Shown here: positions 1,014 to 14,412 of the stretch, one piece after another
Layout: each line of letters opens with the position of its first letter
How positions within the stretch are numbered: position 1 is the first letter of the stretch
Origin: Aquimarina latercula DSM 2041
GTDB taxonomy: Bacteria > Bacteroidota > Bacteroidia > Flavobacteriales > Flavobacteriaceae
DNA: 64,000 nt
Reading direction: 5' to 3'
NCBI RefSeq assembly: GCF_000430645.1
Contig: NZ_KE387185.1
Coordinates: forward strand, 1-64,000
Notes under the pieces: model-generated
Database searches by the model: none
Told to the model about the DNA's origin: nothing
The model's input: only the letters and a program-made list of their open reading frames with translations
Made by a program: the position numbers and the translations under genes

Positions 1014-1898
1014 TTATGTTTTATTCTTAAATTTTCTTATCCCCCAAGCTACTTTATAGGTTCTGTATAATAGATCATACAATACCATTTCATGCAGACG
1101 ATTTTTAGACCTAAACAATCGATTCATAAGCATATGAATATAACTACTCATCATGTCATCTAATTGATTTTTATCTACAATCGTCAATATTTCTTTAACC
1201 AAATCTTTACTACTTATACTTTTCTCATCTAAAGCATCAATAATCGGAGCGTAATCTGGATCTGAATCTCTTTTAAAACTTAGGAAATTTTTAATTTTAT
1301 CATGTTCATTTCGGAATTTCTTATCCATTTGCTTCTTAAGCCCCTTATTCATTCCAAACTCAACACCAAATCCAGTCTTTAAACGTTCCAATAAAGCCAA
1401 CTTATCATCTTCACTATAACCAAAATCCTGAAGCAATTGATCTATAGCTCTAACGCCAAATAACCATCTCAATTCTTCTCCTTCGTCCCCGTCAATCATA
1501 TCTAAAAAATCCACTATCATTCTGCTATCCAAAAAAAATAATTCTTCTGAGATACTCATAGTTTCTCCTCCGTATCGCTCTACCTCTCTTTGATATGTAT
1601 CCAATTGTATTTTCCATATAAGATCTTCATCAGAAAACTCTTTTAACGAGCCATATAATGTGTTTATAACCTCAGCAATATTTTCAGGTTTATTATAGTG
1701 AAACCTTACTCTAATATGATGTTTTGGATCGTTATATCTTATAAAAAACCACTTATCGATAATTCCTTTGTCTAAAAGATGCGTAGCAATTGGTTTAATA
1801 ATATCGGTTAGAATCAGGTCAGAGGTTTTAGGTCCAGTGTATATTTTATAATACAACCACTCGCTACCTATAATAAAGGATCTTTGTACATCAACCAT
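1014..1898 (-). CDS. lanB: Lanthipeptide dehydratase, elimination domain protein (split LanB)
   Basis: A stand-alone 294-residue protein of the thiopeptide-type/Lant_dehydr_C family. In full-length LanB this domain removes glutamate from glutamylated Ser/Thr to give dehydroalanine/dehydrobutyrine. Residues 51-66 carry the family motif FFIRYNDPKHHIRVRF with conserved Arg54, Asp57, Arg63 and Arg65. Near the C-terminus (about 253-260) IHMLMNRL matches the conserved H-M-x-x-N-R-L segment. Its ATG overlaps the stop of the upstream glutamylation gene by one base (TAATG), so the two halves are translationally coupled and presumably act as one enzyme. Split LanB enzymes are known in Bacteroidota clusters such as pinensin. 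Last gene of the cluster. Confidence 0.88.
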   Translation of the reverse strand: MVDVQRSFIIGSEWLYYKIYTGPKTSDLILTDIIKPIATHLLDKGIIDKWFFIRYNDPKHHIRVRFHYNKPENIAEVINTLYGSLKEFSDEDLIWKIQLDTYQREVERYGGETMSISEELFFLDSRMIVDFLDMIDGDEGEELRWLFGVRAIDQLLQDFGYSEDDKLALLERLKTGFGVEFGMNKGLKKQMDKKFRNEHDKIKNFLSFKRDSDPDYAPIIDALDEKSISSKDLVKEILTIVDKNQLDDMMSSYIHMLMNRLFRSKNRLHEMVLYDLLYRTYKVAWGIRKFKNKT

Positions 1899-4132
1899 TA
1901 ATTCTGTATATTTTTTAGCTTAGTTTCGTTATAAAAAGACACCACAATTTGATTTGTAAACGCATTTTCTCCTTCTTTTATAGAACTATCTTCGGAATGC
2001 AAAAATTCCTTTAATTTAAATCTTTCTCTCTTCTTTACTGTATTCAGCAACATTTTCATTGATGTTATATTCCTCGTATTAATTAACAATTCATTATCTC
2101 CATCTACGAGTAGTACAAATTGAGGTAGTTTTTTAGCATCAATAATTTTATGTAATTCGATCTTAAATTCATCATCATCCTTTTGAGATTTCAATAAATC
2201 AGCGATATCTAATGATGAAATATTCCAAGTTGCATTAGAGAATATAACATCTTTATACTCAACTCTTGGTAAAAAATCATACTCCTCCGAAAACGGTCCC
2301 CAATCAAAACCAATTCCACTTCTTACATTTTGCGTTTGCATATTTGCTAAAAACTGATAAATCGGTAAAGCATTACTCGAAAAATTATGGGCATTTGTTA
2401 AATGGGGAACTACTTCTTTATTAAATTTTTTGGAACGTAATTTTACTTTACCTCTTGGGCTTGCAGAAATCATTAAATCATCTAACAAAAGTTGATCTTG
2501 GTCAGTAATAATAGATTTTGCTAAATAAGGAATTTCATATTTTCTAAAATTAGGCCGCATCAAAATATTACCAACTCTTGATTCGGGTAAATGCACTATT
2601 TCTGCTAAAATTTTGTCCGGATTTAACTTGGTTTCTAAATCAATTATTTCCTGAGTGTAGGTATTTAAAGACTCATCACCGTGACAAAAACGACCCAATA
2701 AATTGGCTGCGCTCGAGCCTCCACAACTAGACATTACTATTTTTTGTGCACTATCTATTTCTACTAATTCTACCATAGAAGAAATCGTATCTGGCAAATC
2801 CTGCCAGTTTTCTTCTAATCCTTCAAAATCCTTATCTGTAAGTTCTAATAAATGTTTTCCTTCTTTTATAGACGACACTAATTTTTTATGAAGAATTGAT
2901 TGTATCGAAGACCATTTAACCTCTTTTACAGCTACTTTTTCTTGTTTATATGGCAGTAAAAGATCATCAATAATCTGACTCACATCTCCAGAGTCTTTAT
3001 CTTGTAAAAAACCAATTCCTAGTTCTACATCAAGCGCTTTTGATAAAGACACCTCTCTACTCTCATAACGTTCATAAAAAGCTGATTTAAATCTAGAAAT
3101 AAATGTTTCTTTTGGAGGCAAGGTCAATTTGTTAAGTAATGATAACCCTCTTCTTATTTTTCTTATCGTATCATAACTCAGTGTGTTCTTCTCCACCGAT
3201 AAACTCATATCCGTTTGAAACATATATTTTAACTCAAAACCAGTTTCTAACTTCTTAAGAGATTCGCTAAGATCGATATATTCCTGAGCCGAATTCCCGA
3301 TATTTTTATCAATATGTTCTAATGTTTCTCGAACATTTTCTAATTCGGAAACAATATGATCAGTTCCTGATAATTTCTGTAGAACAGGCATTATTTGATC
3401 TAAAAATTCTGGTCCAGAAACAGAAGGTTCTAATTCACTAATTAATAATTGACTTTCTACCAATTGATCGATATATCCAGAAGCTTCGTCATAGGTAATT
3501 TCATCGTCTATTAATACTTCTGCTAAATCACTAAGTAATGCTCCTTTTTTTACTTTAGTTAGTACTTTTTGTAAATATTCTGAGTCCTCCACAGCAACAA
3601 TATGATGCACTCTTTTACTATTTACATAAGAATATTCTACATATCTAAGTTGTTTTCCTGCTTTATATATACTGGTATTAGGGTAAAACAAGAGTTGATT
3701 CCGGATTTTCTTATCCTTTACAATATCCTGTGATAACGCTACCAGATAATTCATATCTAATCGTGTATGCCGATTGTTCTTTGATTTATCAGAAAGTTCT
3801 ATGGATGTGATGTTAGAAAATTCTCCAACCGCAGTACCGGCAAAAAGACCAAATGGCGTACATCTAGAAGACATCCTACTAAGATATTTCAAAACAGAAT
3901 ACATCATATGTTCTGATGCTGCTTTCTCCTTTATTTCTCCTTTTAGCCACTTTTCAAACTCCTGATATAATGAAGGAGATGCTAAAAAAATCGCTTCTTT
4001 AACAATTTTATCCGTACAAACTATTTTTAGTTCTTCTTCACTTAATTCTTCGTTTTTAGTTAACTCTTTATAAAATGAAAAAGAAAAGAGTGGTGTTCTT
4101 AAAACGTACTTAGAAAAGTTTTTATAGCTCAT
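1898..4132 (-). CDS. lanB: Lanthipeptide dehydratase, glutamylation domain protein (split LanB)
   Basis: Lant_dehydr_N family; transfers glutamate from Glu-tRNA to Ser/Thr of the precursor peptide. It opens with SKYVLRTPLFSF, the usual LanB N-terminal strand, and has SSRCTPFGLFAG at residues 88-99, the family signature. SSCGGSSAANLLGRF lies in the second half. It stops after about 744 residues, before the elimination domain, which is the next gene. Start choice: a GTG at 4168 would add 12 residues inside the end of lanC, but the ATG at 4132 places the conserved strand right at the N-terminus, as in other LanB proteins, and leaves a 17-bp gap after lanC. The start is therefore not certain; the identity is. 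Confidence 0.9.
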   Translation of the reverse strand: MSYKNFSKYVLRTPLFSFSFYKELTKNEELSEEELKIVCTDKIVKEAIFLASPSLYQEFEKWLKGEIKEKAASEHMMYSVLKYLSRMSSRCTPFGLFAGTAVGEFSNITSIELSDKSKNNRHTRLDMNYLVALSQDIVKDKKIRNQLLFYPNTSIYKAGKQLRYVEYSYVNSKRVHHIVAVEDSEYLQKVLTKVKKGALLSDLAEVLIDDEITYDEASGYIDQLVESQLLISELEPSVSGPEFLDQIMPVLQKLSGTDHIVSELENVRETLEHIDKNIGNSAQEYIDLSESLKKLETGFELKYMFQTDMSLSVEKNTLSYDTIRKIRRGLSLLNKLTLPPKETFISRFKSAFYERYESREVSLSKALDVELGIGFLQDKDSGDVSQIIDDLLLPYKQEKVAVKEVKWSSIQSILHKKLVSSIKEGKHLLELTDKDFEGLEENWQDLPDTISSMVELVEIDSAQKIVMSSCGGSSAANLLGRFCHGDESLNTYTQEIIDLETKLNPDKILAEIVHLPESRVGNILMRPNFRKYEIPYLAKSIITDQDQLLLDDLMISASPRGKVKLRSKKFNKEVVPHLTNAHNFSSNALPIYQFLANMQTQNVRSGIGFDWGPFSEEYDFLPRVEYKDVIFSNATWNISSLDIADLLKSQKDDDEFKIELHKIIDAKKLPQFVLLVDGDNELLINTRNITSMKMLLNTVKKRERFKLKEFLHSEDSSIKEGENAFTNQIVVSFYNETKLKNIQN

Positions 4133-4149
4133 AGTTTTGCTATTTGGAA

Positions 4150-5373
4150 TTAACTGATTAATAAACACTCATCCCATTTCGTCTCGAATGGTGCCAAATA
4201 AGAAATTATACTCAGTCCAATTCCTGCTACACCTTCTAATAAATTGATTTCTTTTCTCCAACCTTCATCCGTTCCACCAAACCATTGTTTATAACCTACA
4301 TATCCATCTTCATGTATTGCCATTTTAAGCCCTTCTTCCATCCAAAAATCGGCTGTTTCTTTAAATATTGTCTTTTTTGTTTCTTTATACATATAATTAT
4401 AAATCTGTACCATACCAAAGGTACCATGGCATAGGCCGTTATCTTTTACTTTAGCCTCTATAAGATCTCTTCTTTTACAGGAGTTTTCCACTGTGTCAAT
4501 TCCTTTTTGAATAATTGTATCATCTTTTAAAACGTTTCCTACCCGCCATAAGGTTAAGCCAATTCCTAAATCCCCATAACACCATGCCAATCGCTCAACA
4601 CTATTCTTTTCCTTGCCTTGATATACCCAACTTGGAAAAAAAGAAGAACAAGATACATCTTTGTTTTCATTACATAGAATAAACTGTGTAGCTTTCTCTA
4701 TTACAGGCATTACTTCATCATAAAAGTCATCATAAATTGCCAAACGTGATAAAAAGTTTATAATACTAGACATTCCATGGGAGAGACTTAAGTTACATCC
4801 TCTAATTTCTTTATTTTCGTCTAGATAACTCTCCCATTTCATCATACCATCCTCTTTAATAGCAGCTCTTTTAAGAGAAGCCACAATCTCTAAAAGTTTT
4901 ACTTTATAGTATTCTTTTAAATCTACAGATTTTGTCCTCTGATATCTTTTAAAAAAATAAAATCCAATCCCTATTACTCCATGAAGAAAATCATAAAATT
5001 TATCTTTCTCTCCCATTTGTACGATAGCACTGCTTAAATAAGCATCCAAATCCGATAGAAGTTCATCACTATCTATATCAATAAACTCTTCTTCCTCTAA
5101 CAATTCTATCACCCAACCTGCTCCGGCAATTCCAGTACAGAAAGTAGGAAAACTATATCCTTCATTAATTTTTTCAATTACAGAAGATATCATTTCTACT
5201 CCTATATCAGCATGAGATTCTTGATTAGTAAACTTAGAATAATAAAAATTAAACAATGCGATTCCAGAAATACCTGATAAAACACCAACATGTTCATTCG
5301 TCTTATAATTTTCGGAAAGAATGGTACTTATTCTTTCCAGTTTATCTAACAATAGAGGTTTAAGTGTATTCAT
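4150..5373 (-). CDS. lanC: Lanthipeptide cyclase LanC
   Basis: A 407-residue LanC-like alpha/alpha-barrel enzyme that forms (methyl)lanthionine rings by adding Cys thiols to dehydrated residues. All expected zinc and catalytic residues are visible: Cys265 in AWCYGD, Cys315-His316 in GLCHG, and His199 in LSLSHG. The repeated G-x-x-G helical motifs (GVLSGISGIALF, GIAGAGW, GVIGIGF, GDLGIG, GTFG, GVAGIG) are also present. It follows the precursor gene nearest to it by 137 bp, with a hairpin terminator in the gap, and is directly followed by the split dehydratase genes. Length and residues are normal for an active cyclase. Confidence 0.93.
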   Translation of the reverse strand: MNTLKPLLLDKLERISTILSENYKTNEHVGVLSGISGIALFNFYYSKFTNQESHADIGVEMISSVIEKINEGYSFPTFCTGIAGAGWVIELLEEEEFIDIDSDELLSDLDAYLSSAIVQMGEKDKFYDFLHGVIGIGFYFFKRYQRTKSVDLKEYYKVKLLEIVASLKRAAIKEDGMMKWESYLDENKEIRGCNLSLSHGMSSIINFLSRLAIYDDFYDEVMPVIEKATQFILCNENKDVSCSSFFPSWVYQGKEKNSVERLAWCYGDLGIGLTLWRVGNVLKDDTIIQKGIDTVENSCKRRDLIEAKVKDNGLCHGTFGMVQIYNYMYKETKKTIFKETADFWMEEGLKMAIHEDGYVGYKQWFGGTDEGWRKEINLLEGVAGIGLSIISYLAPFETKWDECLLIS

Positions 5374-5399: not shown

Positions 5400-5424
5400 A
5401 AAACTGCCCAATTAAGGCAGTTTT
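5400..5424 (-). terminator. Hairpin terminator between precursor 1 and lanC
   Basis: Perfect 9-bp stem (5400-5408 with 5416-5424) and 7-nt loop, followed on the minus strand by seven T (plus-strand A-run 5397-5403). It lies between the precursor gene and the modification genes. This is the usual place for a partial terminator that lets precursor mRNA outnumber enzyme mRNA. Confidence 0.75.
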
Positions 5425-5510: not shown

Positions 5511-5663
5511 TTAGAAACAATATCTTCCTGGAGGAGGACAGCTATTAAAAGCATCTAGGGTAGGACAACAATGTGTTGGATCAATACCACCCTTTATTTT
5601 ATTAAGGTTTAAGTCACTAATCGTTTGTTTTTTAAGCTCCAATTTTTTCAATGATTTTTTCAT
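5511..5663 (-). CDS. lanA: Class I lanthipeptide precursor peptide 1
   Basis: A 50-residue peptide. The leader (1-26) begins MKKSLKKLELKKQTISDLNL and ends NKIKGG, the Bacteroidota class I lanthipeptide pattern of K-K-L-x-L-x-K-x-T-I-x-x-L-N followed by a GG cleavage site. The 24-residue core has four Cys (32, 33, 42, 49) and three possible dehydration sites (Thr30, Thr35, Ser41), plus a Pro-Pro-Pro-Gly stretch (43-46). With three Ser/Thr and four Cys, up to three rings and one free Cys, or a disulfide, are possible. It lies directly upstream of lanC and the split LanB on the same strand. Ring pattern and activity cannot be read from sequence. Confidence 0.88.
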   Translation of the reverse strand: MKKSLKKLELKKQTISDLNLNKIKGGIDPTHCCPTLDAFNSCPPPGRYCF

Positions 5664-5687
5664 GATATTGTATAATTTTTAAAATTA

Positions 5688-5781
5688 CCTACTCTGTTTA
5701 TGGTTTTCGGCTTCCCCATACCAAAATTGATTATTCTAAATATTCCATTTTGATTCTACAACCAAATTAACACAGAGTAGG
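5688..5781. repeat. 10-bp inverted repeat flanking the precursor 1 promoter region
   Basis: CCTACTCTGT (5688-5697) and its exact complement ACAGAGTAGG (5772-5781) bracket 74 bp immediately upstream of precursor 1. The span should hold the promoter. It may be a regulator site or a long-range mRNA stem; neither is shown. Confidence 0.5.
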
Positions 5782-5833
5782 AAAGCAAAAAAACATAGTT
5801 TCCTCATTTTGGATAAAATACGGAGCAAAAAAA

Positions 5834-5853
5834 GCCCCGTAATTTTACGGGGC
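5834..5853 (-). terminator. Hairpin terminator of precursor 2
   Basis: GC-rich 9-bp perfect stem (5834-5842 with 5845-5853), 2-nt loop, then seven T on the minus strand (plus-strand A-run 5827-5833). It starts 22 bp after the stop of precursor 2 and separates that gene from precursor 1, so precursor 2 is probably a monocistronic message. Confidence 0.82.
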
Positions 5854-5875
5854 CCTATATTTTATTTCTATTTGA

Positions 5876-6028
5876 CTAAGGTATATGACTATGGTCACAA
5901 CGTACATCAGAATCAGCGTGTTCCGTCGGTAAACAATCACCTCCTTTAATTTGGCGCAACCCAGCATTATTAATTCTAGCAATAGTAAGCCTTTTCAAGG
6001 TTACCTTTTTCTTTAACTGTTTTTTCAT
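5876..6028 (-). CDS. lanA: Class I lanthipeptide precursor peptide 2
   Basis: A second 50-residue precursor. The leader (1-30) starts MKKQLKKKVTLKRLTIARIN and ends LRQIKGG, again the Bacteroidota K/L-rich T-I-A-x-[IL]-N leader with a GG cleavage site. The 20-residue core has only two Cys (32, 44) and three hydroxy residues (Thr35, Ser40, Ser47). It is unusually rich in Asp and His (four Asp, three His). It shares the leader style with precursor 1 but no core similarity, so the locus probably makes two different products with one enzyme set. It has its own upstream repeats and its own terminator. Confidence 0.85.
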   Translation of the reverse strand: MKKQLKKKVTLKRLTIARINNAGLRQIKGGDCLPTEHADSDVRCDHSHIP

Positions 6029-6132: not shown

Positions 6133-6156
6133 ACCGCATTTTGTTCAAAATGCGGT
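6133..6156 (-). terminator. Hairpin after the AraC/TPR regulator gene
   Basis: Perfect 10-bp stem (6133-6142 with 6147-6156), 4-nt loop, 16 bp after the regulator stop codon. The T-run on either side is weak, so termination may be partial. Confidence 0.55.
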
Positions 6157-6171
6157 GTTTATTTCCTTATA

Positions 6172-7917
6172 TTAAACACTTTGTACTTTAGGGTGAAGTT
6201 TCTCTATATTTTTTATATAATACGACGGATTAAGTCCTGTTTTAGCCTTAAAATGTTTTGTGAAGGAATTATCACTCTTGTATCCTATTTCTGATGCAAT
6301 GGAACTAATAGAAAATGATCTAAATTTTTTATCATTCTTTAATCTTTTAAGAGCGTAATCAATTCTTAGATCATTGATATAATCATTAAAACTCTTCGCT
6401 TTATAGGTATTAATAATTTTAGAAAGATACGTAGCATTTGTTTTTACCTTTTTTGCAATCGACCTTAAATTACAGTCTAAACTCAAAAAATATTCTTGTT
6501 CTTCCATCTTAAGCAATCCTTTGAGAACTTCGTTGATTTTTTCATCATCTATTAAAATCTCTTTTGCTACGTCTTTTCTATCAGTAGATTCTATTTTCTC
6601 TTTAGTTTCTAGATCTGATATTTTTTTTACAAGCTCGTTAAATACAATTTTATTCGATTTTTGTTTTCTAAAATACACTATTAATACCGTAATCATTATC
6701 AAAAAAACCAATGCCAAAATTCCAGAAATATATTCCTTATACTTTTGTTCTTTTACCCGTTTACTTTCTAATTTTTTTATTTGATCGCCCAATTGTTGAG
6801 TGTTTTGATCATATATTTTGTTAACAGTTTTGTCCTTATCTTTTTGGAATTGATCTTGTAATTCTTGGTGTCTAGTAAACCAATGAATAGATGCATCCCC
6901 ATCTCCTATCTCCTTATAACTTTTAGCCAAAAGTACATGTGCATCAATGATTCTATTTTTTCTTAAATCACTTTCTTTTAAAGCATTTATAGTTTCTAGT
7001 AGATAATTAATAGCTTTATCATAAGATTTAATATCGTAAAAATAACTTGCCAAAAAATAATTAACGTTGATCCATTGATTTGATCTTTTACTAACCTTCA
7101 GGTTCTTTAAAATACCTTCTGCTTTATATAAAAAATTCAACGCTTGATTGAAATCTTTACTTTGATAAAAAACAATACCTTTTTTAATATATAAATCAGC
7201 AATAGCTATTTGATAATCCAAAAGTTCACTCATTTTTATACCTATATCAGTATACTTAAGAACAGAGTCAAATTTTTCCAAATCCAAATACACTTCACTA
7301 ATAATAGTGAGTACATTAACATGATTTTTACCATTCTTAAATGATGTTTTATCAATAAAACTTAGTAATTTATTACAATCAACCAATGCGTTATCCAACT
7401 GATTCATGCGCCTTAAAACTATAGCAATATTGGATTTAGCAACAATCTCATTTTTAAGATCCCCTTTTTCTTGCGCCATTTCTAAGACCTGATGATACGC
7501 ATCTATTGCTTCTTGATTTTGCCAATCTTGTAAATAAGAATTCCCCTGACGTTTATATGCCTCACATAGGGTTTTATCGTCATTATTGGCTGAAGCAATT
7601 TTTATAGCTTTATCTAAATAAGATATACTCCTCTCCGACTCTTCTTTCTTATAGAAATAATATCCAATGTCGGAATATACAATGGCAAGATTTGTATTTG
7701 GTTTCCTAGATTTATTTAGAGCGATTTCATAAGCTACACTTTCATTGATCTTAGAAGTCTTGATCAAATCAATTAATTCTGTAAAAGTTTTGTTTTCTAA
7801 ACTATCAACTACTATTGAACCTTTTTCCTGAGCTTGAATTTTTAACGTCAAAACACCGGATACAAACAAACAATAAAGTAGAAACTTTGGGATATATCTA
7901 TTAACAAAAAAAAACAT
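6172..7917 (-). CDS. TPR-containing membrane regulator with C-terminal AraC DNA-binding domain
   Basis: A 581-residue one-protein sensor-regulator of a type common in Bacteroidota. Residues 1-29 are a signal/anchor segment ending in AQ. About 40-350 are TPR-like helical repeats, expected in the periplasm. One transmembrane helix (about 394-414, GILALVFLIMITVLIVYF) follows. About 470-575 form an AraC-type double helix-turn-helix with the signature IASEIGYKSDNSFTKHFKAK. It lies directly upstream of the precursor genes on the same strand and presumably controls them, perhaps through the 15-bp repeats. The signal sensed is unknown. Confidence 0.85.
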   Translation of the reverse strand: MFFFVNRYIPKFLLYCLFVSGVLTLKIQAQEKGSIVVDSLENKTFTELIDLIKTSKINESVAYEIALNKSRKPNTNLAIVYSDIGYYFYKKEESERSISYLDKAIKIASANNDDKTLCEAYKRQGNSYLQDWQNQEAIDAYHQVLEMAQEKGDLKNEIVAKSNIAIVLRRMNQLDNALVDCNKLLSFIDKTSFKNGKNHVNVLTIISEVYLDLEKFDSVLKYTDIGIKMSELLDYQIAIADLYIKKGIVFYQSKDFNQALNFLYKAEGILKNLKVSKRSNQWINVNYFLASYFYDIKSYDKAINYLLETINALKESDLRKNRIIDAHVLLAKSYKEIGDGDASIHWFTRHQELQDQFQKDKDKTVNKIYDQNTQQLGDQIKKLESKRVKEQKYKEYISGILALVFLIMITVLIVYFRKQKSNKIVFNELVKKISDLETKEKIESTDRKDVAKEILIDDEKINEVLKGLLKMEEQEYFLSLDCNLRSIAKKVKTNATYLSKIINTYKAKSFNDYINDLRIDYALKRLKNDKKFRSFSISSIASEIGYKSDNSFTKHFKAKTGLNPSYYIKNIEKLHPKVQSV

Positions 7918-8000: not shown

Positions 8001-8387
8001 TTATCTAAAATTGATCGTACAACTTTGTGATTGTCCAAACCACTTTACTCTATTACGAGAAGCTAATTTATAAATTCCATCACGTAACATTCTTGGCACA
8101 AACGCTAAAAGAGCGGCTACCCTTTTCCATTTTGGGATTTTAGAAACAATTCTTAAAAAGCCGTCTGAATGTGTATGAGATCCATTTTCATCAATAAGAA
8201 TTACGGTATCTAATTGCTCTGTAGGGTATCCATATTTTTTTAGGTATTCTTGACCTTGAGGTGATTGAAACGGAGTAAAATGGAAAAGATCTTCTGGAGC
8301 AAATTGCATTAACCAACCAACTACACCATTACACAGATTACATTCTCCATCGAATATAATAATACTTTTGTTTAAAGAAGTTTCCAT
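8001..8387 (-). CDS. DCC-family (DUF393) thiol-disulfide oxidoreductase-like protein
   Basis: 128 residues with the family signature FDGECNLCNG (Cys16-x-x-Cys19) right after the first strand, as in the DCC family of putative thiol-disulfide oxidoreductases. No signal peptide is seen, so it is probably cytoplasmic. It sits 27 bp after the ABC ATPase gene and 83 bp before the AraC/TPR regulator, all on one strand. A redox role in keeping precursor Cys residues reduced is conceivable, but the family is widespread and the neighbourhood may be chance. Confidence 0.85.
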   Translation of the reverse strand: METSLNKSIIIFDGECNLCNGVVGWLMQFAPEDLFHFTPFQSPQGQEYLKKYGYPTEQLDTVILIDENGSHTHSDGFLRIVSKIPKWKRVAALLAFVPRMLRDGIYKLASRNRVKWFGQSQSCTINFR

Positions 8388-8414
8388 TTTATTGATTTTT
8401 AAGTTTTTACAACC

Positions 8415-9083
8415 CTATAGTCGTATAAAACCATCAATCATTTCAATACTACGATGAGAATTAAGATAAATCTTAGGATTGTGCGTTGCAATTACTACCG
8501 CTTTATTTCTAGATCCGGTAATTTCCTTTAATAATTCAAATATCATTTCAGAATTTTTCTGATCCAAATTTCCTGTCGGCTCATCAGCTACAACCAAAGA
8601 AGGATCATTGATTAGTGCCCTAGCAATCGCTACTCGCTGTTGTTGTCCTCCAGAAAGTTGATATGATGGACGCTTTGCAAAATCTTTCATACCTACTTCT
8701 TCCAACAAGATAAAAGCATCTTTTTTAATTTCTTCTTTACTCTTTTCTGATAATTTCATCGCTGGAAGCATTACATTCTGCAATACGTCAAACTCAGGAA
8801 GTAAATAATGAAACTGATATACAAAACCAATATGTTGGTTTCTAAAATCGGTAAGTGATGAAGGCGTTAAGTCTTTAACATCCTGATTATGGATATTCAA
8901 ACTCCCTTCAAAATCCATATCTAAGGTGGATAAGATATATAACAAGGTTGATTTTCCGCTTCCGGATTCTCCAAAAACCGAAACCAACTCTCCTTCAGAA
9001 ATTGACACAGAAATGTTCTTTAACACCTGATGCTTTTCTGGATCAAGAAAGTATTTGTTAATATGTTGTGCCTCTAATATCAT
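8415..9083 (-). CDS. ABC transporter ATP-binding protein (LolD/MacB type)
   Basis: 222 residues with all ATPase motifs: Walker [10 protein letters not shown] (38-46), Q-loop around YQFHYLLPE, signature LSGGQQQR and Walker [13 protein letters not shown] with the catalytic Glu. Sequence and size match the LolD/FtsE/MacB group. Its ATG overlaps the permease stop by four bases, so it forms one complex with it. The substrate is unknown: lipoprotein sorting (LolCDE) is the default reading, and export of or immunity to the nearby lanthipeptides is the alternative. Confidence 0.92.
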
Positions 9084-10294
9084 ATTCCTCTAATAATTGT
9101 TACCGGATCCACTTTACTTGCTTTTCTAGAAGGGAAATATCCAGAAACAATAGTGGTCAAAACACCAAACAAAAACCCTAAAATATAGTAAGACATTCTA
9201 AAATTAATAGGATATGTATCTACAATGATGAAATCAGAAGTATCCAATGGTGTTGTCGAAATCATATAACTAATTACATACCCTAAAATTCCGCCAAAAA
9301 ATGCTCCTAAAACTCCAATGATCAATGATTGTATTAAAAAAATAAAAACAATATCATTGCTAGAATATCCAATAGTTTTTAATACTGCAATATCCTTTCT
9401 CTTCTGAATTACTGTAATATTTAGAATATTATAGATCCCAAATCCAGCAACTAAGAGTAAGGCAAAAGAAACAGACCAAGTAAGGATATCACGAACCTTA
9501 TTCCCTATTACAATAGTCTTATTACTATCTTTCCAATCTTCTGTGGTAATTGTATCTATGTTCTTTATGAGATCTTCCTTAAGATTCACATTATTTCTGT
9601 CTTTTAGCTTAATATGAATATTGGTTATACCATTTTCATTTCCTAATAAATTTCGCAAAGTACTTGCAGAAACATATGTTCTAACATTATCAATAGTGGT
9701 TATCCCGAAACTAAAAATACCAGAAACTTTTAACGCTTGATTCTTTCCATTGGGAAGTATCATTTTAATCGTATCACCAACGGATATTTCTAATCTCTTT
9801 GCCAAGCTTATCCCTAAAAGAATTGTATTTTCATTTAACAAACTAGAAAAACCTTCTCCTACTATCAAACGTCTTTCTAGATCAACCACGGTTTGCTCTT
9901 GGTCAGGAAAAACACCATTGATACTTCCTGGAAATTGCTTTGTATCACTAATTAAAATTGCTGGTGAAATTATCTGTTGCGCAAAAGATTGTACATTTTC
10001 ATGATTTGCTAAAAACATATTGATTCTTTCACCGTTTTCTATATAGTTAGACGGTACTAATGAATTGTTTTCTAATTCGGTGTTTGTTTTTTTACTAACA
10101 ATAATATCTGGACTACCATTAAAAACTGCATCATCCAAAAAGTCATTGACACCAGTCATGAAATTAATCATTACAATAAAAGTAGTCACACCCAATAACA
10201 CACCAATAGTAGCTAAAAAGCTTTGCTTTTTTCTTGCAGAAAGATATTGTAATGCAATAAATACATTGGTTTTATTAAAAACTTGATTTGACAT
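9080..10294 (-). CDS. ABC transporter permease, FtsX/MacB family (LolC/E-like)
   Basis: 404 residues with the MacB/LolC topology. One N-terminal transmembrane helix (about 27-50) follows the motif FIALQYLSARKKQSF. A large periplasmic domain (about 50-265) comes next, then three C-terminal helices (about 275-400) forming the FtsX domain. The C-terminus [16 protein letters not shown] is typical of this family. It is the first gene of a minus-strand run that continues through the ATPase, the DCC protein and the lanthipeptide regulator. LolCE and MacB-like exporters cannot be separated by eye. Confidence 0.88.
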   Translation of the reverse strand: MSNQVFNKTNVFIALQYLSARKKQSFLATIGVLLGVTTFIVMINFMTGVNDFLDDAVFNGSPDIIVSKKTNTELENNSLVPSNYIENGERINMFLANHENVQSFAQQIISPAILISDTKQFPGSINGVFPDQEQTVVDLERRLIVGEGFSSLLNENTILLGISLAKRLEISVGDTIKMILPNGKNQALKVSGIFSFGITTIDNVRTYVSASTLRNLLGNENGITNIHIKLKDRNNVNLKEDLIKNIDTITTEDWKDSNKTIVIGNKVRDILTWSVSFALLLVAGFGIYNILNITVIQKRKDIAVLKTIGYSSNDIVFIFLIQSLIIGVLGAFFGGILGYVISYMISTTPLDTSDFIIVDTYPINFRMSYYILGFLFGVLTTIVSGYFPSRKASKVDPVTIIRGI

Positions 10295-10392
10295 ATTTCT
10301 TAGGTCGCTATAGCAAGAATATGATTACACTAATTAATAATAGTATATTTCTGTAATTTCGAACCTTACCAATATTCAAAACCAAAAACTAA

Positions 10393-10755
10393 CTATTTAT
10401 TTCTTTTACTACTTTTTGCAATAGGGTTAAAATCCAGACATAATTGTATCCAATATTCTAGGTCTTTATCTAAATCGAACCCATCTGGAGTAACAAATGC
10501 ATACCCTTTCATAGGTCTACCAGTAAAATCCATAGGGTAACACCCTTCTCTTTTTATAGCATTTTTATATGCTTCCTCTCCAATGCGGGCCATCAGTAAA
10601 TCTGTTTCCTTTTTTTTGTCATAATGAATCCCACAACACATCTTATCATCCACCATAAAGCAAAGGCCCCCCATCATTTTTTTAGTGTAAAAGTTAGCTC
10701 TTTTATCTCTAAAAATCTGGTTGATTCTATCCGCTAAATATTCATTATACGCCAT
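10393..10755 (-). CDS. TfoX/Sxy family N-terminal domain protein
   Basis: 120 residues matching the TfoX N-terminal domain: KMMGGLCFMVDDKMCCGI near residue 26 and a KGYAFV strand in the second half. In gammaproteobacteria TfoX/Sxy activates competence, but stand-alone N-domain proteins in Bacteroidota have no established role. It is coupled to the DUF2461 gene (one-base TAATG overlap), suggesting co-translation. Confidence 0.8.
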   Translation of the reverse strand: MAYNEYLADRINQIFRDKRANFYTKKMMGGLCFMVDDKMCCGIHYDKKKETDLLMARIGEEAYKNAIKREGCYPMDFTGRPMKGYAFVTPDGFDLDKDLEYWIQLCLDFNPIAKSSKRNK

Positions 10756-11420
10756 TAATATATTGCTTTGATTAAATATTCATTTATTGGACGCATTACC
10801 TGCCAATAATCCATAAGCTTATCTATCAGAGATTCACTGGTAATAAGCGCAGGAGATTCTTCGCCGACAAAATAAAATTGCTTATTAGCGATTAAAGGCT
10901 CTCTTTCATAAGCCTCTTTCCACTCTTTAGGGACACGCTTTAGTGCTCGTCCTTTTATACTACCAAATTTTTGAACAAAATCATTGTCATTTAATAATTT
11001 TCTAAATCCTGAAGAATCTTGGCTAATTTTAGTTCGTATACCGTGTAATTGTTCTTTCGAAACACCAAAACACCCTCCCATCACACCTACCATTTCTGGG
11101 GAAAATCGTAAAAACATTCCCGGAACGCTCTTATCCTTGCGACCTCCTCTAGATACAAATGCTGTATAATGGATATTATATGGAGTTTTATCCTTAGAAA
11201 AACGAATATCCTTGTTAATACGAAGTATACAATCCTTTGCCTCTATTTCTAAGGTAGGATCATATTTTTGTATTTCCTGAATCATCCTATCTACAAAAAC
11301 CTCGAAGGGTTTCTTAATACTTAACTCGTATCTTTTCTTGTTAGCATGAAACCATTCTTTATGATTATTTTGTTCAAGTTCTTTAAAAAAGTTTACAAAA
11401 TCTTCAGTAAAATATTGCAT
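10755..11420 (-). CDS. DUF2461 family protein
   Basis: 221 residues of the DUF2461 family (TIGR02453-like). It opens with TEDFVNFFKELEQNNHKEWF and has the conserved R-I-N-K-D-I-R-F-S-K-D-K-T-P-Y-N stretch near residue 70. Function of the family is not known. It overlaps the TfoX-like gene by one base. Confidence 0.85.
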   Translation of the reverse strand: MQYFTEDFVNFFKELEQNNHKEWFHANKKRYELSIKKPFEVFVDRMIQEIQKYDPTLEIEAKDCILRINKDIRFSKDKTPYNIHYTAFVSRGGRKDKSVPGMFLRFSPEMVGVMGGCFGVSKEQLHGIRTKISQDSSGFRKLLNDNDFVQKFGSIKGRALKRVPKEWKEAYEREPLIANKQFYFVGEESPALITSESLIDKLMDYWQVMRPINEYLIKAIY

Positions 11421-11461
11421 AAGTGAAGTTATTAATATTTAAATATAGTCAAACCATAAAT

Positions 11462-11539
11462 TAGAACGAAATCAAAGCGTACGTATAACTTCTATCTGTT
11501 TGTAAACACAAAAATTACAGGCGCTTTGATTTCATTCTA
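11462..11539. repeat. Long imperfect inverted repeat
   Basis: Two 18-bp arms (11462-11479 and 11522-11539) are complementary at 17 of 18 positions and flank a 42-bp loop. They occupy the gap between the DUF2461 and VOC genes. No T-run follows on either strand, so it is not a classical terminator; a dispersed palindromic element or a stem in a read-through mRNA are possible. Confidence 0.6.
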
Positions 11540-11558
11540 ACGGATAGCTCTTTATATG

Positions 11559-11921
11559 TTAAGACATAGAATGAAATGCCACTCGATTACCTTCTGTATC
11601 CAGGAAAACAGCCATAAAGCCATTTTCTCCAATAGAAGTTTTGGGCATTAAAATTTTTCCCCCAGCCCTTTCCACACGAGCTAATGGAATAGCCAAATCA
11701 TCACCTCCGCTAAGATATGCAAAGGTCCCTTCTTGAGAAGGTGTATTGCCATTTCCATGAGTGATACATCCCCCGACACCGCCTTCTTGATATGGAAAGA
11801 AAGCCATTTTAAACTCCATTTCCATCGGTTGTAATTCTGCACCTAACAGCTCATTATAAAATTTCACGGCTCTTTCAAAATTGGTACTTGGTATTTCAAA
11901 CCAACTAATTGCATTCGACAT
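11559..11921 (-). CDS. VOC family protein (glyoxalase/bleomycin-resistance fold)
   Basis: 120 residues with two beta-alpha-beta-beta-beta halves. It begins AISWFEIPSTNFERAVKFYN and ends GNRVAFHSM, a typical VOC metal-site frame with a C-terminal His. Related small proteins are annotated as glyoxalase-like or lactoylglutathione lyase-like. The substrate cannot be told from sequence. Confidence 0.85.
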   Translation of the reverse strand: MSNAISWFEIPSTNFERAVKFYNELLGAELQPMEMEFKMAFFPYQEGGVGGCITHGNGNTPSQEGTFAYLSGGDDLAIPLARVERAGGKILMPKTSIGENGFMAVFLDTEGNRVAFHSMS

Positions 11922-12016
11922 AATAATATATTTTGTATTGATTAAGAATATCTCAAAGGTATATGATAAGGATCGTTTAGAAAAACATTATTTTTGACAA
12001 AACATAGGTTTCTAAA

Positions 12017-13408
12017 ATGAAAAAGAACGAAGAATTATTCTACCTAATTAAATCATTAAGTAAAAGTGAAAAACGTTATTTCAGACTTAGCTCAAAAGGC
12101 GGAGAAGACTCGGAATACCTATTGTTGTTTAATGCGATAGAAGAACAAAAAACATATAACGAGGCTATAATAAAAGAAACATTTGCAAACAAATCTTTTG
12201 TAAACCAATTAACTACTATAAAAAACTATTTAAAACAACGTATTTTACAGTCTTTGCGAAATTATCACGCTAGGATTTCTATACAGGCTGAATTAATAGA
12301 CATCATCCGCAATGTAGAAATTCTGTTTCATAAAGGTCTATATACTATTTGCAACAGTGAACTAAAACGTGCAGAAAAAAAAGCAATTAATTTTCAGCAA
12401 AATATTGTATTGTTTCAAATTAAAGACTGGAAAAGAAAAGTACATCAGGCATTATACCCTCAGGATTTTGATTCTTTAAAAATTATTATTGTTGAACAGA
12501 AAAACTCACTGAATTCTGCTGTTGAATACAGCAATCTTCTATTAGCTAATGTCGACCCCATAAACTCATCTTTTTCTCACAAAAAAACAAATCACTTACA
12601 CAATAAAACACTAAAAACCTTACACCTATACAGAAAACAACTTGCCGCTAAAAAATATGAAAAAGCAAAAAATACCATAGAAAAACTACTAAAAGAATGG
12701 GAACAGCAGCCTGAGTTACTCAAAGAATATTTTACTACCTATTTCTCTGTATACAATAACTATCTAGGATATCTTGTCTTTAAAAAATTACATAAAGAAG
12801 CTTTTGTTAGGATCTTGGTTTTAAAACAGAAAGCACAAGAAATCAACTCAAATTCTGCTTCATTAATTAAAGAAAAACTTCGTCTTTATAACATCGAGCT
12901 TGAAATTCATCGATATCTAAAAGATCTGCACAACACACAAGAGGTAATCGAAAATATCCAAACCTTTATTAGACAAAACAAAAAAGTTATTCCTTATAAT
13001 TACTGGCTATCATTTCGCTTTCAATTTTCTACCATTTATTTTCAGAAAAAAGACTATAAAGAATCACTTCACTGGATTAACAACATCTTAAACAATCAAA
13101 CAAAAAAGGATCGAAAAGATTTGATTACATACACTTATTGGCTTAACCTTTTAGTTCATTATGAACTAGGAAATGGATTGACTTTAAGGTATTTAATTAC
13201 AGCTATTAAGAAGCATATTAAAAAACGAAAAAACATAGCTTCCTATGAGATGCTGATATTAAAATTATTATCCAAAACGGTCGAGTACTCGGAAAAAGAT
13301 AAGGAAATTGCTTTCCAGGAATTATCCTTCCGATTAAAAGAAGATCCTATTCCAAAATTTATAATAGGATATGTCAATTTTAATGAATGGATCGATCAAA
13401 AATATTAA
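12017..13408 (+). CDS. Helical-repeat (TPR-like) hypothetical protein
   Basis: 463 residues, Lys- and Leu-rich, almost entirely predicted helix, with no signal peptide or membrane segment. The opening KNEELFYLIKSLSKSEKRYF is a form I have met in other Bacteroidota proteins of unknown function. Helical pairs such as KDYKESLHWINNILNNQ near residue 345 resemble degenerate TPRs. The gene stands alone on the plus strand between divergent and convergent minus-strand neighbours. A scaffold or regulatory role is possible but unsupported. Confidence 0.8.
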   Translation: MKKNEELFYLIKSLSKSEKRYFRLSSKGGEDSEYLLLFNAIEEQKTYNEAIIKETFANKSFVNQLTTIKNYLKQRILQSLRNYHARISIQAELIDIIRNVEILFHKGLYTICNSELKRAEKKAINFQQNIVLFQIKDWKRKVHQALYPQDFDSLKIIIVEQKNSLNSAVEYSNLLLANVDPINSSFSHKKTNHLHNKTLKTLHLYRKQLAAKKYEKAKNTIEKLLKEWEQQPELLKEYFTTYFSVYNNYLGYLVFKKLHKEAFVRILVLKQKAQEINSNSASLIKEKLRLYNIELEIHRYLKDLHNTQEVIENIQTFIRQNKKVIPYNYWLSFRFQFSTIYFQKKDYKESLHWINNILNNQTKKDRKDLITYTYWLNLLVHYELGNGLTLRYLITAIKKHIKKRKNIASYEMLILKLLSKTVEYSEKDKEIAFQELSFRLKEDPIPKFIIGYVNFNEWIDQKY

Positions 13409-13468
13409 GTGTTCTAAGTTTCCAAAAGAGAAATAAATTAGTTAGATTTTTACCGGTAGTAGATAAAA

Positions 13469-13495
13469 AAGCCCATAGTGCAAAACTACAGGCTT
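13469..13495 (-). terminator. Hairpin terminator after the lipoprotein gene
   Basis: Imperfect 11-bp stem (13469-13479 with 13485-13495, two mismatches), followed on the minus strand by six T. It ends the TetR-SRPBCC-lipoprotein transcription unit. Confidence 0.6.
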
Positions 13496-13518
13496 GTTAA
13501 GTGATTTATACAACTTTA

Positions 13519-14412
13519 TTAATCAGATTCATCAGGTTTAGAGTTTCCATACATTGGTAACCCTTCTATGGGGTACAAAATCTCTTTATTAAAACCATCA
13601 AACTTGTAATTAGATAATGTGAAATAATACACAAAACTATCTTCTTTCTTAGGTGACAGTAGTTGTATACTTATTTTGCTAGGTAAATATGCTCCAGAAT
13701 CTGTTTTTTCACGATCAAATCTAACGGTACCATGTTGTAAACCTTTTGGCATGGTAATAAAAAAATCATTTATCGTGACTTCTGTAAGATCTATAAAACC
13801 AGTTTCTTTATTAATATAAATTAGCCAACGATCATATTGATCATTAGGTTCCTCGGACCCCCAAGTAGCATATACCAAATCATACTGTTTATTTTCGAAC
13901 TCTTTTTCTCCTGCATACCTAATAATCGTTGCATCTAACATTCTAAATGGTGATTCTAATATGTAATGATAGGTTGCCAATCCCCAAATATATCGATCGT
14001 GTTCATGCTTTTTTATTTCGTTAGTTTTATCTTTGATTTTATATCCTTGCCAAGATTGTAATCCCTGTATAGTTCCTTTTTTTCTTCCTTCGAGGTATTG
14101 CAACTGCCCATCAAAAGTGTTAGTAGCGAAACGAAATTGAAGATCATTTTTATTATTCCCTGGAAAAGCGTTCATAGGCATAACTAACCATCCTTTTTTC
14201 CAGTTAAATTGCGCCGTTACTTCATATACATCTGTTTTGGAAAAATTATCGTATCCCATTTTTTCCATAGAAGCCTGTAAAAGTTCTCTTCCTTTTGCTT
14301 CTGTTTGATTAGGATTACTTATTAAGTAGTCACTTCGTAAATCAACAGATGAGCAGGATTGAATGATCAAAATAGCTGTTACAAGAGATATCAATTTGAT
14401 AAATAATTTCAT
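13519..14412 (-). CDS. Lipoprotein of unknown function in the TetR/SRPBCC unit
   Basis: About 297 residues. It starts MKLFIKLISLVTAILI and has the lipobox IIQSC, so it is an envelope lipoprotein. An upstream in-frame start at 14436 would put eight extra residues before the signal peptide and overlap the SRPBCC gene; the ATG at 14412 fits better. The body is beta-rich, with a GRELLQASMEKMG helix near the start. In style it resembles the lipoprotein at 17943-18821 (ligand-binding LolA/DUF6503-like fold suspected). It is the last gene of the unit with an SRPBCC protein and a TetR regulator. Confidence 0.82.
   Translation of the reverse strand: MKLFIKLISLVTAILIIQSCSSVDLRSDYLISNPNQTEAKGRELLQASMEKMGYDNFSKTDVYEVTAQFNWKKGWLVMPMNAFPGNNKNDLQFRFATNTFDGQLQYLEGRKKGTIQGLQSWQGYKIKDKTNEIKKHEHDRYIWGLATYHYILESPFRMLDATIIRYAGEKEFENKQYDLVYATWGSEEPNDQYDRWLIYINKETGFIDLTEVTINDFFITMPKGLQHGTVRFDREKTDSGAYLPSKISIQLLSPKKEDSFVYYFTLSNYKFDGFNKEILYPIEGLPMYGNSKPDESD

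Follow-up and report, generated by a model that had tools for sequence, protein, structure and literature searches.

Lanthipeptide gene clusters are numerous in Bacteroidota, but very few of their products are known. In the nisin system, the modified peptide of the cluster induces that same cluster through NisRK, a case of autoinduction. The available part of a 2020 survey names the pinensins as the sole lanthipeptides isolated from Bacteroidota, and the pinensin-type class I systems it describes have a split LanB, a LanC, and leaders ending in GG (Walker et al. 2020, PMC7268733). Among Bacteroidales RiPP clusters, TPR-domain genes were reported in two of nine, and the available text of that work notes that, in other bacteria, TPR proteins may function downstream of pheromone binding (PMC10352776); the idea of a TPR protein working with a peptide in Bacteroidota RiPP clusters is therefore not new.

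Here, we describe a class I lanthipeptide locus, likewise with a split LanB, a LanC, and GG leaders, located in a window of 64,000 nucleotides (positions 1 to 64,000 of contig NZ_KE387185.1) from the 6.2-Mb genome of a member of the genus Aquimarina. All features described below for this window are on the minus strand.

Organization of the locus and its enzymes

The genes of the locus follow each other in the order REG, peptide 2, peptide 1, lanC, lanB-N, and lanB-C. Hereafter, peptide 1 (5511 to 5663) is termed the type-A precursor, or A, and peptide 2 (5876 to 6028) the type-B precursor, or B, while REG (6172 to 7917) denotes the TPR-AraC regulator 5' of B. As the preliminary description had stated, the two precursors are 50-codon open reading frames (ORFs) with leaders ending in GG, located 5' of lanC and a split lanB. 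The compositions given there also hold: the core of A, IDPTHCCPTLDAFNSCPPPGRYCF, has four Cys and three Ser/Thr residues, and that of B, DCLPTEHADSDVRCDHSHIP, has two Cys and three Ser/Thr residues, in addition to four Asp and three His residues. Each peptide combines a class I leader with a core containing Ser/Thr and Cys, supporting the view that one class I enzyme set is accompanied by two precursor-like genes. Moreover, the order and placement of both ORFs are conserved across the six orthologous clusters closest to the window (L035 to L040), indicating that they are more than chance reading frames. The unit order REG-B-A-LanC-LanB-LanB is identical in the window and these six clusters; other clusters repeat the unit, and one locus (L044) harbors four REG-B units and two lanC genes.

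Both parts of a LanB dehydratase are present. The glutamylation part (LanB-N, 1898 to 4168; PF04738, E 7.9e-145) was aligned to NisB (4wd9), and its SRCTPFG block aligns with NisB and 9g04, while the elimination part (LanB-C, 1014 to 1898; PF14028, E 7.8e-77; TIGR03891, 248 bits) has an ERYGG block that aligns with 9g04 and 5ehk; we take both blocks to have catalytic roles. The LanC cyclase (4150 to 5373; PF05147, E 5.6e-46) matches 8byk and NisC, and its CYG and CHG motifs, which presumably provide zinc ligands, align with 8byk (the alignment was displayed to 8byk and 3t33). Between A and lanC, a hairpin followed by a T run (5402 to 5422) was seen by eye; it is absent from the list of the terminator scan. 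No C39 peptidase-transporter was found within the cluster, and the four Peptidase_C39 matches of the genome are all on other contigs, two of them in open frames of approximately 750 amino acids.

The window's LanC is the one LanC match in this genome. A second split LanB is found on contig C4 (C4:405000-424000), where it accompanies, at positions 8240 to 14323 of that stretch (L004), a regulator resembling REG and a GG peptide with the core ALLNLDENDSEDDTWGS; as this core is devoid of Cys, a LanB without LanC lies there beside a Cys-free peptide. At another locus (L064, 10577 to 11781), a stop-interrupted lanC copy lies beside an intact one, and at a further LanC locus (L061) eight precursor ORFs with a common leader (MKKKKEDSLSLKFDKQQISKL..) and differing Cys-containing cores surround lanC.

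The type-A precursor and its relatives

The leader of A contains the LxLxKx5L motif exactly as given in the available part of the Bacteroidota survey (PMC7268733), while B matches it only approximately. Taken alone, A falls below both leader models (NF038153, 14.2 against a cut-off of 22; TIGR04149, 17 against a cut-off of 25); in relatives, A adjoins lanC. The core type [T/S]xCCPTxxxxN[S/T]CPPxGxxC was found in 24 of the 25 homologues returned by a protein search. In an alignment of the window's peptide with 22 of these 25 matches (n=23; P0014, P0020, and P0025 were excluded), the invariant residues, counted from the position after the start Met, are C31, C32, P33, T34, N39, C41, P42, P43, G45, and C48. 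Type-A loci with a named source belong to Aquimarina, Dokdonia, Lacinutrix, Sinomicrobium, Kordia, and other Flavobacteriaceae, some of them with variant cores. Since the core type is this widespread, the reading of the core of A as a one-off was rejected. A text search of the open-licence literature found no characterised product with this core. Overall, A seems to be a class I lanthipeptide precursor of the ordinary kind.

Pairing of the type-B precursor with the regulator

Across the window and L035 to L040, the A cores are nearly identical, whereas the B cores are strongly divergent. When 66 Aquimarina genomes were searched for REG, 29 of them yielded a total of 72 matches (E up to 1e-100), each of which was covered by a fetched stretch, and an ORF with a B leader lies within 1 kb 3' of REG in 70 of these 72 (median gap, 144 nt; range, 94 to 393). 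The remaining two are L229 and L211, the latter with two B ORFs at a distance of 3 kb. Elsewhere among the 3203 short ORFs of the REG loci, the B-leader model matched only three times, twice in L211 and once on a type-A peptide. LanB or LanC matches were present within 10 kb of REG-B in 34 of the 70 modules and were not found in the fetched stretch of the other 36, the enzymes having been sought by tblastn with the window's proteins in stretches that mostly end 6 to 9 kb either side of REG. Because the pairing extends to loci where no lan enzyme was found in the fetched stretch, B goes with the regulator and is the regulator's own peptide. Behind B, a GG-leader ORF of another type was scored at all 36 of these loci.

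The pairing is also seen beyond the lanthipeptide clusters of the genus. In the genome of the window, an orphan REG-B pair lies on contig C3, and seven REG relatives matched over both the sensor and the helix-turn-helix (HTH) domain (E up to 2.4e-29), and GG peptides whose leaders resemble that of B lie behind five of the seven (C1, C3, C4, C11, and C17; not C2 and C9). A weaker eighth match (C1, 418113-419519) is in two pieces. The B model matched in 13 of 397 genomes of the family, including two from Aquimarina; given the shortness of the model, this is a lower bound. Loci of Dokdonia and Lacinutrix have the order REG-B-A-LanC, and those of Kordia REG-B-A.

Several arrangements around these modules were observed. 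Among L193 to L229, those REG-B modules that have no lan enzyme in the stretch carry behind them Cys-rich GG peptides with other leader types (MLSKILNLKDVQQLNKKQQ.., MLNNILELKGVTTLNKKEQQ..). At L208, from position 7878 onward, one REG is followed by three consecutive B ORFs, and the stretch also contains LanB parts. At L154 (8337 to 10872), a REG paralogue of the window's own genome precedes three B-like GG peptides whose cores are rich in Ser/Thr, and no lan enzyme match was found in that stretch.

The preliminary description had raised the possibility of a two-product system, and A and B might indeed be the halves of a two-component lanthipeptide that act together, as they are neighbors in all seven orthologous clusters and, by eye, DC-type B cores tend to adjoin CCPT-type A cores. 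Nevertheless, the association is not obligate. Other peptides stand behind B at the 36 of 70 loci without a lan enzyme in the fetched stretch, and A lies beside LanC with neither REG nor B found in the stretch at L046 and L114. A and B also recombine: the distal A core is common to L037 and L050, although B is not, and the distal B core is common to L037 and L038, although A is not. The partner of B is therefore REG and not A, and we regard a two-component lanthipeptide as quite improbable. The reading that we prefer, although our confidence in it falls just short of even, is that B is an autoinducer, probably lanthionine-bearing, which is sensed by REG, and that A is the effector, the three forming a regulator-signal-effector cassette.

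Composition of type-B cores

B passes NF038153, the NCBIfam leader model for class I lanthipeptides (26.2 bits; cut-off, 22). Asp and His account for 35% of its core, against a median of 16% in its relatives, and a share of at least 35% is reached by only two of the 70 cores, including that of the window. The Asp/His load noted earlier is thus unusual, but it is no family trait, and the metal binding suggested on its account was rejected because the load is not conserved among relatives. A protein search with B returned one cluster, 98% identical, and the other relatives surfaced only through synteny; that a short-word search misses the relatives of B cautions against claims of uniqueness for a core of this kind.

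All 70 B cores contain Cys, and 69 of them have Ser/Thr at position +1 or +2, or Cys at +2. Among the 41 cores without Cys at +2, Ser/Thr is found at +1/+2 in 40 and exactly one Cys in 38, while every one of the 29 cores with Cys at +2 has further Cys. In the first of these two states, Ser/Thr at +1/+2 is mostly accompanied by a single distal Cys; in the second, Cys at +2 is accompanied by one or two others. They could correspond to a thioether ring and a disulfide, respectively. Moreover, LanC was found in all 29 REG genomes compared with 44 of 58 good genomes (P 7.6e-6), and LanB in all 29 compared with 48 of 58 (P 3.8e-4), relatedness being ignored in both cases. The presence of both enzymes in every REG genome fits modification in trans of B from orphan loci, with shared ancestry as a confounder.

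These cores also bear on whether B could be a leader-competing decoy or an immunity peptide that restrains the enzymes or A. Such a role would agree with the good class I leader of B and with its own intrinsic terminator (5831 to 5856), in which the terminator scan found an 11-pair stem and a T run. However, there are REG-B pairs for which no lan enzyme was found in the fetched stretch, and each of the 36 B cores of those pairs retains Cys, which makes a decoy or immunity peptide highly improbable.

Architecture of the regulator and candidate operators

REG is a predicted transmembrane one-component regulator (Pfam TPR_12 and HTH_18), with an N-terminal hydrophobic segment, a TPR domain, one transmembrane (TM) helix at approximately residues 397 to 415, and an AraC-type HTH. 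The AlphaFold2 model (42 sequences; pLDDT 83.6; pTM 0.56) consists of a TPR superhelix, a long TM-bearing helix, and the AraC HTH. By hydropathy, the internal TM segment between TPR and HTH is present in 65 of 65 long REG proteins, and the N-terminal hydrophobic segment in 50, the other 15 lacking it by the threshold used. In the PDB, the model matched peptide-binding TPR proteins; LGN ranked first, and below it came others as well as Rap proteins, in part with bound pheromone. RapI gave a TM-score of 0.75 (by target) against the TPR part. As TPR folds are common, we treat the match to Rap and LGN as a lead.

Two dyads are candidate operators in the window: CCGCATTTTGAACAAAATGCGG, between REG and B (6134 to 6155), which might possibly be a terminator of REG instead, and CCGTATTTTATCCAAAATGAGG, 5' of A (5802 to 5823). 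They score 16 and 15, just under the cut-off of 17 that was used for ATTTTGTTTAAAAT-like dyads. Dyads passing this score were found 5' of A in 24 of 66 cases (shuffles, 0.0) and 5' of B in 10 of 70 (shuffles, 0.25), those 5' of A sitting a median of 98 nt before the DUF805b box described below. The regions upstream of B and A in the same module have a mean similarity of 13.1, compared with 11.0 for distant and 12.4 for close pairs (permutation p 0.0002); 16 of 66 pairs are singly outstanding, the window's not being among them, and 41% of distant pairs score equally high. There is thus a modest case, drawn from sequence patterns, for the dyads as candidate operators of REG.

Adjacency to REG together with similar dyads 5' of B and of A, or of the effector in its place, is the pattern of target genes. 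It is therefore compatible with the main rival of the signal reading, in which B is merely another secreted product under REG, bacteriocin-like or with some other role, REG senses something else, and A and B belong to a single regulon as separate products. Variable B cores, like those of bacteriocins, would also be accounted for. Against it, B is retained while the effector behind it switches between lanthipeptide A and other GG peptides, and the RNA leader and covariation described next bear on the same question.

The RNA leader of the type-A precursor

The leader of A carries a DUF805b RNA element (RF02914, 5686 to 5720), the sole Rfam match at gathering level in the window (46.5 bits against 35.6). 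The box GGGGAAnCCGAAAACC before A had been considered as an operator of REG; this was rejected in favor of an RNA leader, given the Rfam match, the covariation of the stem, and the presence of the box before unrelated secreted proteins. Exact copies of the strict pattern GGGNNANCCGAAAACC occur twice in the genome, before A and in the C3 orphan, and the reversed pattern has zero occurrences there. Among the modules, the box is present in 64 of 65 scored with an effector ORF behind B and absent from 4 of 5 scored without one. Both exceptions were scoring errors by eye, as the ORFs counted at L208 are extra B copies and a GG-type ORF follows the box at L071. Before B, the box was scored in 3 of 70 modules. 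B thus goes without a leader that is almost universal among the effectors of these modules, which speaks against its being one more product of the regulon.

In the fetched loci, which were chosen for REG, LanC, or A and so form a biased set, nearly all of 107 distinct elements lie 48 to 65 nt before a short precursor-like ORF; two have no ORF, and one precedes a 199-amino-acid lipoprotein. The outermost stem pair is paired in 93 of the 107, the second in all 107 (AT 89, GT 10, TA 4, GC 4), the third in all 107 as GC, and the fourth in 105 (GC 100, CG 4, TA 1). The Rfam model found six elements of at least 35 bits in the window's genome, four before GG-leader peptides and two before secreted proteins. 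At E 1e-6, DUF805b matches occur in 84 of 149 Flavobacteriaceae genomes. At 29 such loci, one from each of 29 genomes (L244 to L272), six elements precede GG-leader-like ORFs and most others precede longer, often signal-peptide, proteins (one was unparsed, and one had no ORF). Since it also precedes secreted proteins in family genomes, DUF805b is a broader leader element that extends beyond the REG modules. The element reportedly originates from work by Weinberg in 2017; a text search of open-licence papers found no literature on it.

Covariation of the B core with the sensor

In the 65 pairs with a long REG, the rank correlation with the B core was 0.63 for the sensor, 0.41 for the HTH, and 0.30 for the linker, while the sensor and the B leader correlated at 0.27. 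The partial correlations with the B core were 0.56 for the sensor given the HTH and 0.22 for the HTH given the sensor, and the sensor-minus-HTH difference ranged from 0.09 to 0.37 by bootstrap; the HTH is better conserved than the sensor, which may depress its correlation. Because the pairs are non-independent and the sensor and HTH evolve at different rates, this covariation is support, not proof. Two results run the other way. In the 25 modules with A (sensor-A, 0.37; sensor-B, 0.56; A-B, 0.38), the HTH correlates as strongly with A (0.49) as with B (0.47), which is counter to a pheromone reading. In addition, the window shares 92% of its sensor with L035 although their B cores are only 0.42 alike, whereas it shares 71% with L040 and the B cores are 0.80 alike, which speaks against a simple lock-and-key relation.

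The closer correlation of the B core with the sensor than with the DNA-binding domain argues against B as another regulated product, yet adjacency and covariation are also compatible with B being a product or target that was passed down together with its regulator. All considered, we find it rather unlikely that B is simply such a product.

Proposed model and comparison with known systems

The signal reading builds on the computed gene content and order, the bond between REG and B, the covariation of the B core with the sensor, and the DUF805b element before A and not B; from these we infer a signal role for B. In this model, LanB would glutamylate and eliminate Ser/Thr residues of A, LanC would form as many as three (methyl)lanthionine rings, and A would be released by a GG-peptidase exporter encoded outside the cluster. 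B would be cut at GG, probably receive one ring from the same LanB and LanC, and be exported, and the TPR domain of REG would bind it outside the inner membrane. B-bound REG would then be activated and drive B and A, perhaps via the dyads 5' of both, and the DUF805b RNA leader, absent from B, may further tune the expression of A.

A wider and more doubtful proposal is that Flavobacteriaceae communicate by peptides through a TM receptor, with a Rap-like TPR domain outside and an AraC HTH inside. This receptor would be served by a dedicated lanthipeptide pheromone, the hypervariable B, with swappable effectors behind it, and an Aquimarina genome would contain as many as five copies of the system. 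To our knowledge, such a peptide-communication system was not known previously. If true, a signal-receptor pair beside each effector would offer a direct means to switch these clusters on, explain the unlike precursors found side by side, and tie the DUF805b RNA motif to precursor genes. Genome mining that counts all GG peptides beside lanC as products would then be counting signals too.

A search of open-licence papers, within the text available from them, found no description of the REG-B-A module, which is weak evidence of absence. The nisin and mersacidin motifs named in the available part of the Bacteroidota survey occur in neither core, and for its clusters that text describes no TPR-AraC regulator with its own peptide (PMC7268733). 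Unlike the REG-B locus, the Bacteroidales RiPP clusters come from genomes without LanB and, in the available text, are given no one-to-one pairing of regulator and peptide (PMC10352776). With regard to the RNA, the element before A is a DUF805b member above gathering whose stem covaries, and the family (RF02914) elsewhere also precedes signal-peptide proteins.

The RRNPP/Rap receptors share the TPR domain with REG, whose model matches RapI and Rap-pheromone structures in fold, and, as in those systems, a small peptide gene directly adjoins that of the TPR receptor. In contrast to a cytoplasmic receptor with a re-imported peptide, REG has a TM segment in 65 of 65 cases, and its sensor is predicted to lie outside the inner membrane, connected by the TM helix to the AraC HTH. 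Compared with nisin and NisRK, a modified peptide of the cluster would likewise induce the cluster, but here the inducer would be a separate peptide, acting through a one-component TM receptor with no histidine kinase.
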